Source: Halanaerobium sp.
Lineage (GTDB): Bacteria; Bacillota; Halanaerobiia; Halanaerobiales; Halanaerobiaceae
Direction: 5' to 3'
Length of the DNA stretch: 33,207 bases
NCBI GenBank assembly: GCA_018399955.1
Contig: JAGYNO010000011.1
Span: forward strand, 1-33,207
Part shown: positions 12,894 through 23,489 of the stretch, piece by piece
Layout: every line of letters begins with the position of its first letter
How positions within the stretch are numbered: the first letter of the stretch is position 1
The notes under the pieces: generated by a model
Seen by the model: the letters and a program-made list of their open reading frames with translations, nothing else
What the model was told of the DNA's origin: nothing
Database searches by the model: none
Position numbers and translations under genes: made by a program

Positions 12894-13946
12894 TTAAGCG
12901 TAGGCTATTTTCTTCTCTCTTGCTTTAAAACTTGCCAGTGACTTAGATATTGCTCTTATTTCATCCATTAATAAGCGGAAGTTGTCTGGTTTTAATGACT
13001 GATGTCCATCAGATAATGCGTTCTCCGGATTTGGATGGACCTCTACCATAATTCCGTCTGCTCCCACCGCTACTGCTGCTCTGCCGACTGGAACTACAAG
13101 TTCCCAACGTCCAGTACCGTGACTTGGATCTGCGATCACAGGCAGGTGACTTAACTGCTGAACAAGTGGAATTGAACTTAAATCCATCGTATTTCTGGTT
13201 TCTTCACCAAAGGTTCTTACTCCTCTTTCACATAATATTACCTGATGGTTACCAGCATTCATGACATATTCCGCAGCAAGCAGCCATTCCTTGATTGTGG
13301 CGGCCATACCTCTTTTTAACATCACAGGTTTATTGATTTTACCCAATTCTTTTAAAAGTGCATAGTTCTGCATGTTGCGGGCACCGATCTGTACAATATC
13401 TGTGTATTCACAAACAACATCTTTGTGTTCAATATCCATCAGTTCTGTTATTACCTTAAGACCTGTTTCTTCTCTCGCCTTTGCTAAAAGCTTTAATCCT
13501 TCTTCTCCTAATCCCTGAAAAGAATAGGGTGAGGTTCTCGGTTTAAAAGCTCCACCGCGCAGTATCTGGGCTCCAGCTGCTTTGACAACTCTAGCTGTCT
13601 CCAATATCTGCTCCTCATCTTCTACTGAACAAGGGCCGGCCATCACGGTCAGCTCTTCACCTCCAACTTTTACCCCATCACCCAGATCAATAATGGTTTT
13701 ATCCTGTTTGAAATTCCAGCTGGTTAACTTATAGGGATCGGAAATCACTATTACCTTATCCACACAGCTCATCGTCATCAGCTGTTCTTTTAAGTTTACC
13801 TTTTTATCAGGTGCAACACCTACAACACCTACAATAGTTGTTTCTACACCAGTATCTGGATGTGCTTTAAATCCTTTTTCTTCAATAGCATCTATTACCT
13901 TCTCTTTTTCCGCTTCAGTAGCATTTCTTTTTAATACCGCAATCAT
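12894..13946 (-). CDS. aroF: DAHP synthase, copy 1
   Basis: A 350-residue type I-beta 3-deoxy-D-arabino-heptulosonate-7-phosphate synthase, which condenses PEP and erythrose 4-phosphate at the entry to the shikimate pathway. Residues 1-70 form a ferredoxin-like regulatory domain ([16 protein letters not shown]...) as in the Thermotoga enzyme, and the TIM barrel follows. Barrel motifs are AGPCSVE (metal Cys106), [16 protein letters not shown] (PEP contacts), [12 protein letters not shown] and [11 protein letters not shown]. The start lies one base after the hisC stop, and its ribosome-binding site GAGAGGAG is inside the end of hisC. A second copy lies about 3.4 kb upstream in the same operon; the two barrels are about 88% alike by hand count but the regulatory domains only about 59%. 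Confidence 0.95.
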
Positions 13947-16463: not shown

Positions 16464-17402
16464 TTAGTCAATATCCTTTTTTAATTCAGCTGCTTCAGCT
16501 AAAAAATCGAAAATATTCTGCTCATCATTTTTTTCAAGATCAGCCTTTAATTCTTCAAGTTCTCTTATATATTTTTCTATCAGATCTATGAGATTTTTAT
16601 TATTTGATAAAATTATATCCTGCCAGAGTTCTGGAGAGCTGCCTGCTATTCTTGTCATATCCCTAAACCCACTTCCAGAAAGTTTAAGCATATTTGTATT
16701 ATCTTTTTCCAGGTTAAGCATATTTACCAGTGCTGAAGAGAGCAGATGAGGCAGATGGCTGACAAGTGCTGTACATCTATCATGTTCTTCTGCAGAAATA
16801 ATGTATGTTCTGGCCCCAATACTTTCTATAAGCTCTTTTAATGCAAGCAGTTCTTCTCTTTTGTTTTGATCCAGGTTATTAATTATCTCACTTTCTTTAT
16901 TAAAAAAAGTATTTTCATTAACTTCGGCTTGGGCCGGCTTATCATCAATTATCGGAGTTAAGATAAAAGGTGCTCCGACAAAAAGGTCTGGATCATGCCA
17001 GTCTATACCTGATTTATGTGAACCTGCCATCGGATGAGCTCCAATAAAAGTTTTGCTGCTTTTTTCTAGGATTTTTTCAGCTTTTTTTAATACTTCTTTT
17101 TTGGTGCTTCCAGCATCAATAATAAGCTGTTTGCTGTCACTGCCCCTGTCAATTTCTTTTATAATATCTGTTATTTTGGAAACAGGTACTGCTATAAATA
17201 TTAGCTCTGCTTCTTTGAGATTATCTTTGATTTCTAAAAAACCTTTATCAATTATCTTTAAGTCCTCTGCTTTTTTGATAGTATATTGATCCTGATCAAC
17301 TGCCAGTATTTTAAGATTTGAGTCAGATTTTTTAAAAGCTGCTGCCAGGGAAGCCCCGATAAGGCCGACCCCGACAACAGCAATTGTATTAAACTTAGGC
17401 AT
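16464..17402 (-). CDS. tyrA: Prephenate dehydrogenase
   Basis: A 312-residue NAD(P)-dependent prephenate dehydrogenase, converting prephenate to 4-hydroxyphenylpyruvate for tyrosine. The N-terminal Rossmann motif VVGVGLIGAS has its glycines at 11, 13 and 16, followed by IFIAVPVS, a GAHPMAGSHKSG substrate-binding stretch, and TALVSHLPHLLSSAL in the helical domain. There is no C-terminal ACT domain, unlike Bacillus TyrA, so direct feedback by tyrosine may be weak and the T-box may be the main control. I use ATG 17402, which overlaps the aroF2 stop (ATGCCTAA); the in-frame TTG at 17429 would add nine residues before the Rossmann strand and seems less likely. Confidence 0.93.
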   Translation of the reverse strand: MPKFNTIAVVGVGLIGASLAAAFKKSDSNLKILAVDQDQYTIKKAEDLKIIDKGFLEIKDNLKEAELIFIAVPVSKITDIIKEIDRGSDSKQLIIDAGSTKKEVLKKAEKILEKSSKTFIGAHPMAGSHKSGIDWHDPDLFVGAPFILTPIIDDKPAQAEVNENTFFNKESEIINNLDQNKREELLALKELIESIGARTYIISAEEHDRCTALVSHLPHLLSSALVNMLNLEKDNTNMLKLSGSGFRDMTRIAGSSPELWQDIILSNNKNLIDLIEKYIRELEELKADLEKNDEQNIFDFLAEAAELKKDID

Positions 17403-18444
17403 AAGCGATTTTTCTCTCTCTTGATTCAAAGCTGTGCAGAGAACTATGAATAGTCTTGATTTCGTCCATCATTAATCTGAAGTTTTCTGGTTTTAAAGAC
17501 TGTGGGCCATCAGAAAGAGCGTTTTCTGGATTTGGATGGACCTCTACCATTATTCCATCAGCGCCAACAGCCACCGCTGCTCTAGCCACAGGTGTTACTA
17601 ATTCCCAGCGGCCTGTACCGTGACTTGGATCAGCAATTACCGGTAAATGGCTTAACTGCTGAACAAGTGGTACTGAACTTAAGTCCATTGTATTTCTGGT
17701 TTCTTCACCAAAGGTTCTTACTCCTCTTTCACAGAGAATTACATCATGATTTCCTTCATTCATAACATATTCTGCGGCAAGCAGCCATTCCTTAATCGTT
17801 GCAGCCATCCCTCTTTTGAGCATAACCGGTTTATCAAGTTTACCAATCTCTTTTAATAGGGCATAATTCTGCATGTTGCGGGCACCAATCTGAATAATAT
17901 CTGTATATTCACAAACAACATCTATATGTGCTATATCCATCAATTCGGTTATTACTTTTAAGCCTGTTTCTTCTCTTGCCTGGGCCAGCAGTTTTAAGCC
18001 TTCTTCTCCAAGTCCCTGGAAAGAATAGGGTGAAGTCCTCGGTTTAAATGCACCACCACGCAGTATCTCTGCACCGGCTGATTTAACAATCTTTGCAGTT
18101 TCCATAAGCTGAATTTCATTTTCTACCGAACAGGGCCCTGCCATCACAGTCAGCTCATTACCTCCGACTTTTACACCATCACCAAGATCAATCACCGTTT
18201 TTTCCTGTTTGAAATTCCAGCTTGTTAGCTTATATGGGTCGAGAATCAGCACTACTTTTTCGACCTCACTCATCGTCATCAGCTTCTCTTTTAATTTTGT
18301 TCTGTTATCCTGATCACCAAGTACACCTATAATTGTTTTCTCTACTCCAACAATCGGATGAACATCAAAGTTTTCACCTTTTATAACATCAATCACCTTT
18401 TGCTTTTCTTCTTCACTTGCATTTCTTTTTAATACGGCTATCAT
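17395..18444 (-). CDS. aroF: DAHP synthase, copy 2 (first gene of the Tyr T-box operon)
   Basis: A 349-residue paralogue of copy 1 with the same layout: an N-terminal ferredoxin-like regulatory domain, then the barrel with [34 protein letters not shown] and [10 protein letters not shown] all intact. It should therefore be active. By hand alignment about 34 of 280 barrel residues differ from copy 1, but about 29 of 70 regulatory-domain residues do, including a one-residue gap at position 49. This suggests different feedback ligands. It is the first gene behind the tyrosine T-box and overlaps tyrA by eight bases. ATG 18444 follows GAGAGGAGA. Just upstream is a stretch resembling the last codons of hisC. 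Confidence 0.95.
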
Positions 18445-18997: not shown

Positions 18998-19864
18998 TTA
19001 TTCAATCACAGTTTTAGGATAAGAGCCCAGCATCCTAAAATAACCTGACATTTCTTTTACTTTATTGAGTGCCTCTTTCAAATCAGTATTCTCAGCATTA
19101 CCCTTAAGATCGATGTAAAATAAGTATTCTCCAAGTCTCTGTCTTGTCGGTCTTGACTCTATTCTGCTTAAGTCGATCTTCTTTTTCGCAAACTCACCTA
19201 AAATTCTGTATAAAACACCAGCTTCATTTACTTTTGGAGCACAGATAATGGATGTTTTAAATTCACTATCTGCTGAATCCCCAAGGTGTCTGTTATCACT
19301 AAAATCTTTATCTTTTTTTGCTGCAAGTACAAATCGAGTTGCATTTGGCAGATCTCCCTGCAGGTTTTCTGCAAGTATATTAAGATTATAAATTTCAGAG
19401 AGCCTGATCGACCCAATAACTGCACTTTTATCCTGATCCAATACCTTGGAAGCTGCTGCTGCAGTGCTTTCTGTATAAACAATTTTTGCATTTTTAAAAT
19501 GCTTGTTTAAGTACTCTCCAGACTGGGCGATCGCCTGAGGATGGCTGTATATTTTTTCTATCTCCTCTTTTTTTACACCCGGTGCTGCCTGAAGATAATG
19601 AGCTATCGGCAGGATGATTTCTCTGTATAACTTTAATTCCGAATGCTGATAGATCAAATCAAGGCTTAAATTAACTGATCCCTCAAGTGAGTTTTCCAGT
19701 GGGAGCAGCCCGAGGTCTACCCTATCACCGCTAAGTGCTTCAACTATATCTCTTATTGATTCACATTGATGTGTTCTGCCGCCATATCTGCTGCAGTAAT
19801 TAGAAATTGCCTGTTCACTAAATGTACCTGGTGGTCCTAAATAAGCATAATCTAAATCTCTCAT
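18998..19864 (-). CDS. pheA: Prephenate dehydratase
   Basis: A 288-residue monofunctional prephenate dehydratase, making phenylpyruvate from prephenate for phenylalanine synthesis. The catalytic part begins YAYLGPPGTFSEQA and includes LLPLENSLEGSVNLSLDLI and the NATRFVLA segment (Thr-Arg-Phe active-site motif). A C-terminal ACT domain (KTSIICAPKVNEAG...IDLSRIESRPTRQRLGEYLFYIDLKG) carries the ESRP motif that binds phenylalanine, so end-product inhibition is expected. There is no chorismate mutase domain. ATG 19864 has AAGGAGG six bases upstream; the earlier in-frame TTG at 19897 sits in the terminator T-run of the leader and is rejected. A Phe T-box precedes it. I see no terminator between it and the aroF2 promoter. 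Confidence 0.96.
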   Translation of the reverse strand: MRDLDYAYLGPPGTFSEQAISNYCSRYGGRTHQCESIRDIVEALSGDRVDLGLLPLENSLEGSVNLSLDLIYQHSELKLYREIILPIAHYLQAAPGVKKEEIEKIYSHPQAIAQSGEYLNKHFKNAKIVYTESTAAAASKVLDQDKSAVIGSIRLSEIYNLNILAENLQGDLPNATRFVLAAKKDKDFSDNRHLGDSADSEFKTSIICAPKVNEAGVLYRILGEFAKKKIDLSRIESRPTRQRLGEYLFYIDLKGNAENTDLKEALNKVKEMSGYFRMLGSYPKTVIE

Positions 19865-19895
19865 GTCCTTCCTCCTTATTTTCTCCCATAAATGC

Positions 19896-19927
19896 AAAAA
19901 TCCCCCGTTCTAATTAAAGAACGAGGG
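19896..19927 (-). terminator. Regulated terminator of the Phe T-box
   Basis: The minus-strand hairpin CCCTCGTTCT / AGAACGGGGG (10 positions, one G-U pair, loop TTAATT) is followed by a T-run at 19896-19900. Confidence 0.88.
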
Positions 19928-20202
19928 TTTAAATTCTCGTGGTACCAATCTTTTTGGCTAAATAGCCCACTCAGCAATTACAGGAATCCTTAAATGATTT
20001 CCAATAATCTGTCCGGTTAACGGTAGACAGCCGGTCAAGCTTACTTTCTGGTTCAGCCGACAACTCACAGGGGAACTTCACCAAAATATTTATTTGCAGG
20101 CTCTCACTAACCCCGCTTCGCTGAAATAAATAATTCTAATTACTTTCCCTGATCACAGTTTTTGAGTTATTTTTTGATAAACTCTGTTTAATTAACTTTG
20201 AT
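19896..20202 (-). promoter_or_regulatory. T-box riboswitch, phenylalanine specifier (UUC), upstream of pheA
   Basis: The leader RNA has a full-length Stem I: the base CAGGG/CCCUG, AGUA at 20141-20144, a long U/A-rich arm ending in an AGCGAAGCGGGG...GUGAGAGCC distal region, and the 3' side GAAGUUC with UUC (Phe) at 20073-20075. A Stem II-like region follows (GAGUUGUCGGCUGAAC onward), then the T-box sequence UUGGUACCACG (19938-19948) and the terminator. Uncharged tRNA-Phe should open transcription of pheA. The architecture matches the normal class and contrasts with the shortened Tyr leader next door. Confidence 0.93.
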
Positions 20203-20299: not shown

Positions 20300-21784
20300 T
20301 TAAATAATATTTTTTGCTTCACATTCTTCATTTAAATAGTCGATAAACTGATCAGCTTTTTCTTTCGGTGCCTCTGTAAATATACTGATAACAACAAACA
20401 CCAAAACACTCACGAGCAGTGTCCAGACTCCAGCTGCATGCCCGAATGGCCGCCAGCCGCTAAACTGCAGATAGACTGCTGTAAATGAGCCAATAATGAT
20501 ACTGCTTAAAGAACCTGCTGCTGTTGCTCCCTTCCAGAAAAATGCTCCAAACATAGACGGAACAACCACCATCAGTCCAACTGAAGCAGCCACTGATAAT
20601 GATGCAATCAGATCCAGTTCCTGTACTGCAAATAACATACCAAGTACAGCAATAATAATGATAGCTATTTTGGCAATTTTCAGCTGCCTGAGCTGCTCTG
20701 GTTCTTCTGCTTTTTCCAATTTATTAAATAAATCTCTAACAACTAAGGAAGAGAGTGTGAGCATTATCGAATCAATGGTAGAAATCGCAGCAGCTGTAAT
20801 ACCTATCATTGCTGTTAAAGCAAGAATTGTTGGCACATATTCTGAAGCCAATAGCTGTGGAGCGGCCATATCTGCATTTTCCAGACCCGGAATCAGTAAT
20901 TTTGCAGAAAAACCCCAGATTACAGATACTAATGTATAGATAAATCCAAAACCTAAAAAGCCTTTGATCATCGTTTTCATTGCTTTTAGATCACGGGGTA
21001 TAAAAAGCCTCTGGCTTACCTGAGGATTTGAGATCGAAAAGAAAAACCACGGCAAACTAAGTCCTAAAAATGTTTTAAAGGAAAAGAAACCGGGCCCAGG
21101 GACAGTCAAAAACTCCGGATGTTCACTGCTCAGCGATCCAAAAAAATTAACGAATCCTCCCAGATGATTATAAATTATATAGGCTAAAATTACAATACTT
21201 ACTGACATCATGATCAGTGACTGTAAAGAATCTGTCCAGGTCACAGATTTCATACCTGCAATTAAAGCCCAGGCAATTGCGAGCACTGAAGCAAGAATCA
21301 CTCCCATAAGAAAAGGTATTTTCCCTCCCGAGAGAGCACTCAAAAGATAACCAACCCCCATCAGCTGAACTGCTAGATAGGGTATTAAAAATACAGATGC
21401 AGATAGTGCTGCAGCTGAAGCAATCCAGTGGTTTTGATAGCGATCTCCAAGCATTTCATAAGGAGATATATAATTATTCTTTTTACCGATCAGCCAGAAA
21501 CGTGGACCGAAAAAAGCCACAAGTGAAAGTCCTGAAAGATATACCAGCTCAAAGCCAAGTGCACCAACTCCTCCAGAGTAGGTAAACCCTGCCAGTCCGA
21601 TCATCATAAAGGCACTATAGGTAGTTGCACTGTATGATAGTGCAGCTACAAAGCCTCCTGTGTTCCTATCACTTAAAAAATATTCCATAACTCCCTGTTT
21701 CATCTCACGTCGTGCTAAATATGCAGTAATAAAACCAGCTAGTATATAGATTAATATAGCTGTGTATAGATAATGTGACGGCAT
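20300..21784 (-). CDS. Sodium:solute symporter (SSS family)
   Basis: A 494-residue integral membrane protein with about 13 hydrophobic helices. Features of the sodium:solute symporter family are the early EYFLSDRNTGGFVAALSYSATTYSA stretch, the ISNPQVSQRLFIPRD signature region, and a helix ITAAAISTIDSIMLTLSSL whose Ser and Thr residues match the Na2 sodium site. The substrate is unknown; general resemblance is to PanF- and PutP-like members. It starts three bases after a small membrane protein, its likely partner. The unit lies just downstream of niaR and of three TCTTTACAG repeats, so a link to vitamin B3 or NAD metabolism is an inference to test. ATG 21784 follows GGAGGG. Confidence 0.9.
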   Translation of the reverse strand: MPSHYLYTAILIYILAGFITAYLARREMKQGVMEYFLSDRNTGGFVAALSYSATTYSAFMMIGLAGFTYSGGVGALGFELVYLSGLSLVAFFGPRFWLIGKKNNYISPYEMLGDRYQNHWIASAAALSASVFLIPYLAVQLMGVGYLLSALSGGKIPFLMGVILASVLAIAWALIAGMKSVTWTDSLQSLIMMSVSIVILAYIIYNHLGGFVNFFGSLSSEHPEFLTVPGPGFFSFKTFLGLSLPWFFFSISNPQVSQRLFIPRDLKAMKTMIKGFLGFGFIYTLVSVIWGFSAKLLIPGLENADMAAPQLLASEYVPTILALTAMIGITAAAISTIDSIMLTLSSLVVRDLFNKLEKAEEPEQLRQLKIAKIAIIIIAVLGMLFAVQELDLIASLSVAASVGLMVVVPSMFGAFFWKGATAAGSLSSIIIGSFTAVYLQFSGWRPFGHAAGVWTLLVSVLVFVVISIFTEAPKEKADQFIDYLNEECEAKNII

Positions 21785-21787
21785 TGA

Positions 21788-21994
21788 TTACTCCCTCCAG
21801 TAGCTTGTTATTTTAATAGTAGAAAAAATCACTAATAAGGCAAAGACTGTCCAGTAGAAAAATGCTCCAAAAAATGAATATACTTCACTTAAATAAAGAT
21901 AAGGAACTACAAACGCTGAAATAACTAATAATGATATAATAACAAGCCAAAATATTCTCTTTTTTTTCAATTCTTTTTTATTAATTACTTTCAC
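21788..21994 (-). CDS. Small membrane partner of the symporter
   Basis: A 68-residue protein with a very basic N-terminus (KKELKKKRIFW) and two hydrophobic helices (about 14-34 and 39-60), ending TSYWRE. Short two-helix proteins of the YhdT/DUF997, DUF3311 and symporter accessory type often precede SSS transporters, and the three-base gap to the symporter supports joint function at the cytoplasmic membrane. GTG 21994 gives the longest frame, but the ribosome-binding sequence AAGGGGTG abuts it. ATT 21985, at good spacing, is an alternative start, so the first three residues are uncertain. Confidence 0.72.
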   Translation of the reverse strand: MKVINKKELKKKRIFWLVIISLLVISAFVVPYLYLSEVYSFFGAFFYWTVFALLVIFSTIKITSYWRE

Positions 21995-22116
21995 CCCTTT
22001 TTAATTTGACAAAAAATATAAATAATTTGCATAAGTACTCAACAGCATGAAGAGCTCCAATCCTTGATCCAAAAATAGTTCTTTATAATTTAAAGATCAT
22101 CAGTAAATTATCCATC

Positions 22117-22164
22117 TTCTTTACAGCTAAAACTTTATATATGTCTTTACAGGTGTCTTTACAG
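22117..22164. promoter_or_regulatory. Three direct repeats TCTTTACAG, candidate NiaR operator
   Basis: On the plus strand TGTCTTTACAG occurs at 22142-22152 and 22154-22164 (period 12), and TTCTTTACAG at 22117-22126. The first and third copies are both followed by CTAAA at the outer sites. They lie between the niaR terminator and the symporter pair, so they belong to the symporter promoter region (a GATAAT -10-like hexamer lies at 22107-22112, with no convincing -35). Repressor sites in phase with the helix, bound by the adjacent 3H-domain regulator, are the simplest reading. I cannot confirm the match to a published NiaR motif. Confidence 0.5.
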
Positions 22165-22179
22165 CTAAAGCAAAAATAT

Positions 22180-22199
22180 AACCAGCCCGACGGCTGGTT
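22180..22199 (-). terminator. Rho-independent terminator after niaR
   Basis: A perfect eight-pair stem, AACCAGCC/GGCTGGTT, has a four-base loop and is followed on the minus strand by ATATTTTTG. It begins two bases after the niaR stop. On the plus strand it is followed by TTTTATT, so it could also act the other way. Confidence 0.85.
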
Positions 22200-22200
22200 T

Positions 22201-22731
22201 TTATTCTGAAAGCAGCAGACCTTTTTCTTCTAATTTTTCTTCAATTAAATTTAATACCTGCTTATTAACAACTTCTATTGTGTGCAGGTGAATTCCATCA
22301 GTTAATTCTGACAGTAATAATGTATCATTTAATCTGTAATTATTGATAAAATTCTCTACATCTTCGAGTGAAGAAATCATTAAATTTCCAATTAGTTCTC
22401 CATAAATCGGATGCTCAACTTTAACATCAACAATTCTGCCCCCATAATTAACTATTGTTCTTAATTCATCTCTTAATTCACTGCCGTCAAAATGTCTGCA
22501 GGCAATTGAAGCTCTAATTGTCTTCATACCCAGATTGTCTTCATAATAATAGCCCTGAGAAGTCGCAATAATCCTTTCTCCTTTTGCTCTCAAAAGTGCT
22601 ACATCCTGAACTATAACCTGTCTGCTGACATCAAAATTTTCAGCTAATTCGGATCCTGTTACTGCTTGATGTGATTGTTTAAGCTTTAAAAGCAGCTCAT
22701 TCCTTCTCGTTTCAGTATTAATAATCTCCAC
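22201..22731 (-). CDS. niaR: NiaR-type transcriptional repressor (HTH_11 plus 3H domain)
   Basis: A 176-residue regulator. Residues about 8-60 form an HTH_11 winged helix (RRNELLLKLKQSHQAVTGSELAENFDVSRQVIVQDVALLRAKG). The rest is a 3H domain with the three defining histidines in CRHFDG, VEHPIYGEL and GIHLHTIE. Known NiaR (YrxA) proteins bind nicotinic acid and repress NAD synthesis and niacin uptake genes. The neighbouring downstream genes are a symporter pair, with repeats between. GTG 22731 opens the frame, but GAGGTG overlaps it; ATT at 22722 (six bases after GAGGTG) is an alternative, the same odd layout as in the small symporter partner. A terminator follows directly. Confidence 0.88.
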   Translation of the reverse strand: MEIINTETRRNELLLKLKQSHQAVTGSELAENFDVSRQVIVQDVALLRAKGERIIATSQGYYYEDNLGMKTIRASIACRHFDGSELRDELRTIVNYGGRIVDVKVEHPIYGELIGNLMISSLEDVENFINNYRLNDTLLLSELTDGIHLHTIEVVNKQVLNLIEEKLEEKGLLLSE

Positions 22732-23051
22732 CTCATTTTCTAAAAAAGTAAGTTGATTTAATAATGTATTTACTAATATAATTTGGAAGGCATTAGAGAT
22801 TAGTCTTCTTGTAAATGTAAAACTCTAATTTTATTCTCTAAAGAAAACTCTTCATGTAAATATCTTATCATTTATATTACTATATTGTAAAGAAAATTTA
22901 TTTAATTGATTTTTCACCTCCACCCAATCCACAGCTTTGATAAAGCTGAATTGGCAGTTTTAGATAAAAGAAGGACTTTATTGCTTCTTATTGAATATAA
23001 TAATGAGATAAAAAATAATTATAATTAAAATTAACTAGGGAGATGATAATT
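22732..23051. other. 320-base divergent intergenic region
   Basis: AT-rich spacer between the minus-strand niaR and the plus-strand OsmC gene. It should hold both promoters; a TATAAT at about 22996-23001 on the plus strand has no good -35. A small hairpin, CAGCTTT-GAT-AAAGCTG (22932-22948), and a single TGTAAAGA (22886-22893), which resembles one half of the repeats downstream of niaR, are the only structures I see. No gene is supported. Confidence 0.5.
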
Positions 23052-23489
23052 ATGCCAACTGTAAATTTTTCAATTAGTGCTCAAAGCGAAAACCCAACAA
23101 AAGTTGTTGTAAAAACTGGAGAGGGCTTTGAAATAATTGTTGATGAGCCTGAAAACATGGGTGGAACAAATGATGGAGCAAGCCCTGTAGATTATGTTAT
23201 AGCTGCACTTTCTGGATGTTTAAATGTAGTAGGACACCTTGTGGCAAAAGAGATGGGAATTGAATTAAGGGGACTTTCCATTGATATAAGTGGGGAATTA
23301 GATCCAGCTAAGTTTATGGGTAAATCAGATGAAGTTAGAGCTGGATATCAAGCCATTAATGTCGAAATTGATGCAGACTGTGATGCAGACCAGGCTGTTT
23401 TAGATGAATGGATAGAGGCTGTTGAAAGCAGATGTCCTGTTAGTGATAACCTTGCCAATAAAACTCCTGTAAATATCAGTGTAAAATAA
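23052..23489 (+). CDS. OsmC/YhfA-family protein
   Basis: The only plus-strand gene, 145 residues. It shows the OsmC fold layout: an N-terminal beta region ending GGTNDGASPVDYVIAALSGC with the first reactive Cys56, a long central helix (LNVVGHLVAKEMGIEL), and a second Cys128 in ESRCPVSDNL. OsmC-family proteins with both cysteines reduce organic hydroperoxides in the cytosol, useful to an anaerobe exposed to oxygen; the YhfA-like subgroup is less well defined. An additional Cys110 is present. ATG 23052 lies nine bases after AGGGAG; the ATG at 23043 abuts that site and is rejected. A bidirectional terminator follows. Confidence 0.88.
   Translation: MPTVNFSISAQSENPTKVVVKTGEGFEIIVDEPENMGGTNDGASPVDYVIAALSGCLNVVGHLVAKEMGIELRGLSIDISGELDPAKFMGKSDEVRAGYQAINVEIDADCDADQAVLDEWIEAVESRCPVSDNLANKTPVNISVK

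Follow-up and report, generated by a model that had tools for sequence, protein, structure and literature searches.

A NiaR-linked sodium:solute symporter as a candidate vitamin B3 transporter in Halanaerobium

The window analyzed here, a stretch of 33,207 nucleotides from a salt-loving Halanaerobium relative (genome 1.87 Mb, assembly 76% complete), carries what is very probably a vitamin B3 uptake operon, in which NiaR together with niacin would repress a Na+:nicotinate symporter that is encoded with a small partner protein. On the minus strand the order of transcription is niaR, a terminator, NiaR boxes, a small open reading frame (ORF) and the symporter gene (Table 1); a 3H-domain regulator, its terminator, three TCTTTACAG repeats, a two-helix ORF and a symporter had been listed in a first-pass annotation of this DNA, and all of them are found where it had placed them. 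With the niaR terminator before them and the symporter pair downstream, the boxes can sensibly serve only that pair. The argument draws on our computations of the identity of the regulator, the boxes and their conservation, the fold and Na2 residues of the symporter, its linkage with genes of NAD and nicotinate metabolism, and PncB, and it makes the symporter a good candidate for a missing bacterial vitamin B3 transporter.

Table 1. Features of the putative niacin uptake locus in the window
Feature	Position	Strand	Basis
niaR, niacin-responsive repressor, 176 aa, GTG start	22201-22731	-	HTH_11 + 3H domains, 7cv0 match
Terminator-like hairpin (intrinsic) 3' of niaR, 8 pairs	22180-22199	-	stem prediction
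NiaR box 1, TGTCTTTACA (TGTAAAGACA read on the - strand)	22154-22163		exact match to type I operator TGT-N4-ACA
NiaR box 2, TGTCTTTACA, 12 bp from box 1	22142-22151		exact match to type I operator TGT-N4-ACA
Third copy of repeat TCTTTACAG, half-site only, TGT missing in front	22118-22126		
Two-helix membrane ORF, 68 aa, GTG start, candidate symporter partner	21788-21994	-	
Sodium:solute symporter, 494 aa, predicted Na+:nicotinate symporter	20300-21784	-	PF00474

The assignment of the regulator to NiaR, which the first-pass annotation had also made, is secure at the level of sequence: both of its domains exceed their cut-offs (PF02829 3H, 111 bits; PF08279 HTH_11, 57 bits), its top match in the PDB is the niacin-bound NiaR of Bacillus halodurans (7cv0, E 1e-37, with 9ebr and 1j5y also matched), and the histidines of the 3H domain are preserved in the alignment with 7cv0. 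The type I NiaR operator is TGT-N4-ACA (PMC7713382), and the repeats resolve into this operator as two exact boxes and a half-site, given that TCTTTACAG stands on the plus strand at 22118, 22144 and 22156 and that two of these three copies fall within exact TGTCTTTACA cores. The surrounding region also resembles the pneumococcal NiaR operator TACWRGTGTMTWKACASYTRWAW, which has been tested by mutation (PMC5343564). The window has four copies of TCTTTACAG where 0.52 would be expected; the fourth (21221, minus strand) is internal to the symporter gene. The probability of two exact boxes arising by chance in the 206-bp gap is 0.00055 as estimated from first-order shuffles. Even when three mismatches are allowed, the double box of 22 bp has no other site in the 1.87-Mb genome, in a search whose backwards-read control also gives 1 match. 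The longer motif CTGTAAAGACANCTGTA is found exactly in the genus solely at the niaR-symporter operon (backwards control, 0). Additional one-mismatch CTGTAAAGACANCTGTA sites elsewhere in the genus, among those read, fall within coding sequence, e.g. gatA-like ORFs, and were set aside as intragenic.

With ample niacin, NiaR would bind it as co-repressor, occupy the TGT-N4-ACA boxes between the niaR terminator and the small ORF, and block transcription of the latter and of the symporter gene; when niacin is scarce, the block would be lifted and the two-helix protein and the SSS symporter would be made. The Na+ gradient would then drive the import of nicotinate through the symporter, and PncB would convert the imported nicotinate to nicotinate mononucleotide, from which NAD synthesis could proceed. 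PncB is encoded in this genome (G000:C89, 667 bits against a cut-off of 469) and nadA was not found in the assembly, which is 76% complete, so that a nicotinate importer makes metabolic sense here.

The window holds other genes around the locus. An OsmC-like gene (23043-23489, plus strand) is divergent to niaR; such a gene also adjoins niaR in two further genomes (G011, G013; L080, L081) and is likewise seen by the symporter region of G014 (L084). On the other side, a T-box leader (RF00230, 105 bits; 19915-20165, minus strand) stands before a prephenate-dehydratase-like gene (18998-19897), the first of a run of aromatic amino acid genes that includes two DAHP-synthase-like genes that closely resemble each other (350 and 349 aa; 12894-13946 and 17395-18444, minus strand).

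The linkage is conserved across the order. In a survey of 38 Halanaerobiales genomes, a close symporter orthologue (67-81% identity) is present in 19, and niaR lies directly 5' of it on the same strand in 18 of these; three genomes have niaR without the symporter and 16 have neither (Fisher 1.3e-6, kinship ignored). Kinship inflates p values of this kind, but not the direct linkage itself. A TGT-N4-ACA box is found in the gap between niaR and the pair in every Halanaerobiales genome examined for it, and in several of the more distant ones it abuts a -35 TTGACA. The gene order also ties the pair to NAD synthesis: two sister species (G011, G013) carry an uninterrupted run of niaR, small ORF, symporter, nadA, nadB, nadC and nadA2, the nad genes being confirmed by curated models; a third genome (G008) retains a 76-aa nadA remnant 3' of the symporter, in the same place; and in G001 the order is nadE-niaR-small ORF-symporter. 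The gene that we call nadA2 is a second, diverged quinolinate synthase gene behind nadABC (L080:7460-8386, L081:3463-4374), and in G010 the whole niaR-small ORF-symporter cassette occurs as a tandem duplicate (L098:3406-8139).

The three genomes with niaR and without a close symporter (G024, G025, G029) have in its stead niaR, a box TGTATATACA that overlaps a -35 TTGACA, and then a gene for a small membrane protein, which we read as NiaX-like. This protein gives no match among NCBIfam, Pfam or PDB entries, and it is absent from the symporter-bearing genomes apart from one weak match in G013 (7.5e-4).

The expectation that the repeat would recur upstream of nadABC, pncB and niaP in the same genome is not borne out as worded: no typical box precedes pncB in this or the other Halanaerobium genomes (PncB is over its cut-off in 15 Halanaerobiales genomes), and this genome has no nadA at which to look; in the two sister species, however, the boxed operon runs into nadABC. 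The lone nadA of G018 likewise has no typical box upstream; it stands without nadB or nadC near pdxS/pdxT-like vitamin B6 genes (L082:6681-7610). It also speaks against the nicotinate reading that in several Halanaerobiales genomes with niaR and the symporter no nadA was found, nor any PncB scoring above its cut-off; they have only a nicotinate-phosphoribosyltransferase-like (NAPRTase-like) protein of 441 aa that is below its own family cut-off, and G032 has neither PncB over the cut-off nor a match to this protein. In the present genome the 441-aa protein (G000:C35 15993-16874; L125:650-1975) is also below the family cut-off; its gene adjoins a pyrimidine-nucleoside-phosphorylase-like gene and is present in nearly all Halanaerobiales.

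A scan of named genomes that reached beyond the order returned 80 loci with a symporter at 52-81% identity, some TGT-N4-ACA site being present in 32 of them against 5.1 expected. NiaR adjoins the pair in Halanaerobiales and in two other Bacillota metagenome-assembled genomes (MAGs; L142, L149), and divergently in Ornithinibacillus (L202), while in Gracilibacillus, Cytobacillus, Paraliobacillus, Saliterribacillus and Aquibacillus a box TGTCTTTACA stands 5' of the pair though niaR is elsewhere. Among 46 genomes outside the order, the pair has a box in front of it in 18 of the 34 with NiaR and in none of the 12 that lack it (p 0.0008, relatedness ignored); the remaining 16 of the 34 have no recognizable box there. 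Within one Bacillaceae family, where 73 of 159 genomes have the symporter family, extra genomes added TGTCTTTACA at 7 of 15 new loci. All of these context counts share ancestry.

A second set of neighbors is catabolic. Nicotinate-fermentation genes flank the pair in Peptococcaceae-type, Desulfovirgula and other MAGs: the molybdenum (Mo) subunit of nicotinate dehydrogenase adjoins it at L141, L143, L150, L175, L198 and L205 which, with the FAD and FeS subunits at L173, makes 7 of the 80 loci, and an enamidase or hnr-like gene stands beside it at four (L150, L173, L175, L198). The enamidase adjacent at L150 matches 2vun (E 3e-161), and the Mo subunit at L175 finds its best solved matches in nicotinate dehydrogenase, namely in the large and medium subunits (3hrd_A, 1.4e-126; 3hrd_B, 8e-100); the label hnr-like, for 6-hydroxynicotinate-reductase-like, is given from ferredoxin domains and position alone. 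In a third context, LarE adjoins or nears the pair at five Syntrophomonadaceae-type loci (L147, L152, L181, L197, L208; 309-325 bits against a cut-off of 150), and the LarE pathway begins with nicotinic acid adenine dinucleotide. At L168 (Desulfotruncus) an isochorismatase-like neighbor could not be assigned as a nicotinamidase, its best match being an N-carbamoylsarcosine amidase-related protein. Many Syntrophomonadaceae and Thermodesulfobacteriota loci have no nicotinate link. In the tree, the NiaR and catabolic contexts are interleaved in one clade, with the group of the window sister to that of L140, L141 and L143 (SH-aLRT 99).

Of the metabolites that NiaR-controlled NAD synthesis, nicotinate fermentation and the Lar cofactor could share, nicotinate appears, from context, to be the simplest, and it is for this reason that we read the substrate of the symporter as nicotinate. 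The first-pass annotation had proposed that the symporter may import vitamin B3, and that proposal has gained from the nadABC genes behind the pair, the nadE before niaR, the NiaX-like gene in the same slot, the Bacillaceae boxes and the fermentation clusters. The broader proposition, that of a widespread Na+:nicotinate symporter family in Firmicutes and their neighbors that serves NAD salvage, nicotinate fermentation and the LarABC cofactor with the small protein as an obligate subunit, seems to us evenly balanced between being right and being wrong.

The symporter itself contains the SSF domain of the SSS family (TC 2.A.21; PF00474, 141 bits against a cut-off of 22.8), and not the fold of NiaP (MFS) or NiaX (ECF), to which it therefore does not belong; nor is it a PutP (98 bits on TIGR02121, cut-off 515.5). 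Its AlphaFold2 model, built from an alignment of 30 homologues, has the SSS/LeuT fold (pLDDT 85.5), the nearest structures being SGLT2 (TM 0.81-0.84), SiaT (TM 0.79/0.81), CHT1 and NIS, with 7sl9 also matched. The Na2-site hydroxyls on TM8, S335 and T336, align with S342 and S343 of SiaT, D185 aligns with D182 of SiaT, and all three residues are invariant across the 30 homologues; at the positions of Na3, a second site that only part of the family has, D185 and S339 are preserved and the position of SiaT S345 is occupied by D338. As the Na2 residues are intact and invariant, Na+ coupling is likely on the evidence of the alignment. A homologue of the small ORF lies directly 5' of the symporter in most of the 80 related loci, and this constant co-occurrence suggests that the two-helix protein is a symporter subunit, a parallel being MAP17, the subunit of SGLT2 among the matched structures. 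The small ORF has no Pfam or NCBIfam match, and a comparison with YhdT/DUF997 gave none either (hhalign probability 1.3%).

How new this prediction is depends on NiaY, which we take to be BH3254 of Bacillus halodurans: the pair may be this already predicted NiaR-regulated transporter, in which case its function would not be a new prediction, a reading that is possible, though we doubt it. One paper assigns NiaY in Streptococcus sobrinus and streptococci, to our knowledge, usually lack SSS carriers, which speaks against the equation. In its favor, NiaY is NiaR-controlled and was reported from five genomes of Bacilli and Clostridia (PMC5343564), a host range that is also the range in which the pair carries NiaR boxes. 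The literature searched, which did not include the paper that defines NiaY, neither states its protein family nor mentions BH3254.

That nicotinamide or a different NAD precursor, such as quinolinate or nicotinamide riboside, is what the pair takes up, with nicotinate acting just as the co-repressor of NiaR, is unlikely on balance. Control by NiaR is compatible with any of these precursors, quinolinate would also suit the operon that runs into nadABC, and nicotinamide could be used in the 22 of the 38 Halanaerobiales genomes in which PncA is over its cut-off; however, PncA was not found in the present genome (76% complete), nadC is missing from most symporter-bearing genomes, to which quinolinate would be useless, and the fermentation clusters start from nicotinate. 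Nicotinamide is moreover uncharged and membrane-permeant, so that a Na+ symporter would be less needed for it. Nicotinate, rather than nicotinamide, would be the main substrate of the predicted carrier.

Far less probable still is a conserved accident, whereby niaR and the symporter would be separate transcription units and the boxes would serve niaR alone or nothing; the terminator does separate niaR from the pair, yet the boxes follow that terminator on the side of the pair, the box and the pair are retained in G014 where IS200/IS605-like transposase genes have replaced niaR (L084:7529-9012), and the Bacillaceae boxes precede the pair where niaR is elsewhere. Hardly credible, finally, is a PanF-type pantothenate carrier incidentally under NiaR, for although TIGR02119 panF is the top NCBIfam match and a small two-helix protein, YhdT, is likewise encoded ahead of panF in E. 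coli, the score of 161.6 bits falls short of the 328.05 cut-off, the symporter shares 25.6% identity with E. coli PanF, the product of the small ORF gave no match to YhdT, and the neighbors are NAD and nicotinate genes. Grouping with pantothenate or proline carriers, which the first-pass annotation had named as counting against its proposal, is not what the tree gives: by a quick method, E. coli PanF and PutP fall on long branches far outside the symporter clade.

A Na+:nicotinate symporter under NiaR would have consequences beyond this locus. Transporters of the three known B3 families are found in just 25% of the B3 auxotrophs in a large set of gut genomes, and even for E. coli no B3 transporter is known (PMC6593275); a Na+-driven symporter family recognizable by sequence would fill part of this gap in bacterial B3 uptake and would account for the entry of nicotinate into cells that ferment it, and the pair would add to the SSS carriers that have a small membrane protein as partner. 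The literature searched, which did not include the 2008 NiaR regulon paper, returned no bacterial SSS nicotinate carrier and no paper joining NiaR and Halanaerobium. The view of the first-pass annotation that this is a new role for the family was nonetheless overstated, as mammalian SLC5A8/SMCT1, a member of SSS/SLC5, carries nicotinate with Na+ (PMC6412771) and NiaY may be the same protein.

Vitamin carriers of the SSS family are indeed already known, as are niacin carriers controlled by NiaR, and the predicted system shares features with both. NiaX likewise takes up niacin under NiaR and has its counterpart in the NiaX-like gene described above, but it is the substrate-binding component of an ECF transporter, whereas the carrier of the window is an SSS Na+ symporter; NiaP is likewise a single-gene secondary carrier of NiaR regulons, but of the MFS. 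The NiaY of the 2008 regulon paper, which follows the same regulatory scheme in the same range of hosts (Bacilli and Clostridia; PMC5343564), may belong to the same family as the symporter. The E. coli Na+:pantothenate symporter PanF with YhdT is likewise an SSS vitamin carrier with a small two-helix protein encoded just 5', and differs in its 26% identity, which goes with a score below the panF cut-off, in a small protein that is non-homologous in the comparison made, and in its gene context. SLC5A8/SMCT1, lastly, has the SSS/SLC5 fold in common with the window symporter (the model matches 7sl9), but is a broad monocarboxylate carrier that takes nicotinate at pharmacological doses, without a small bacterial partner or NiaR control.
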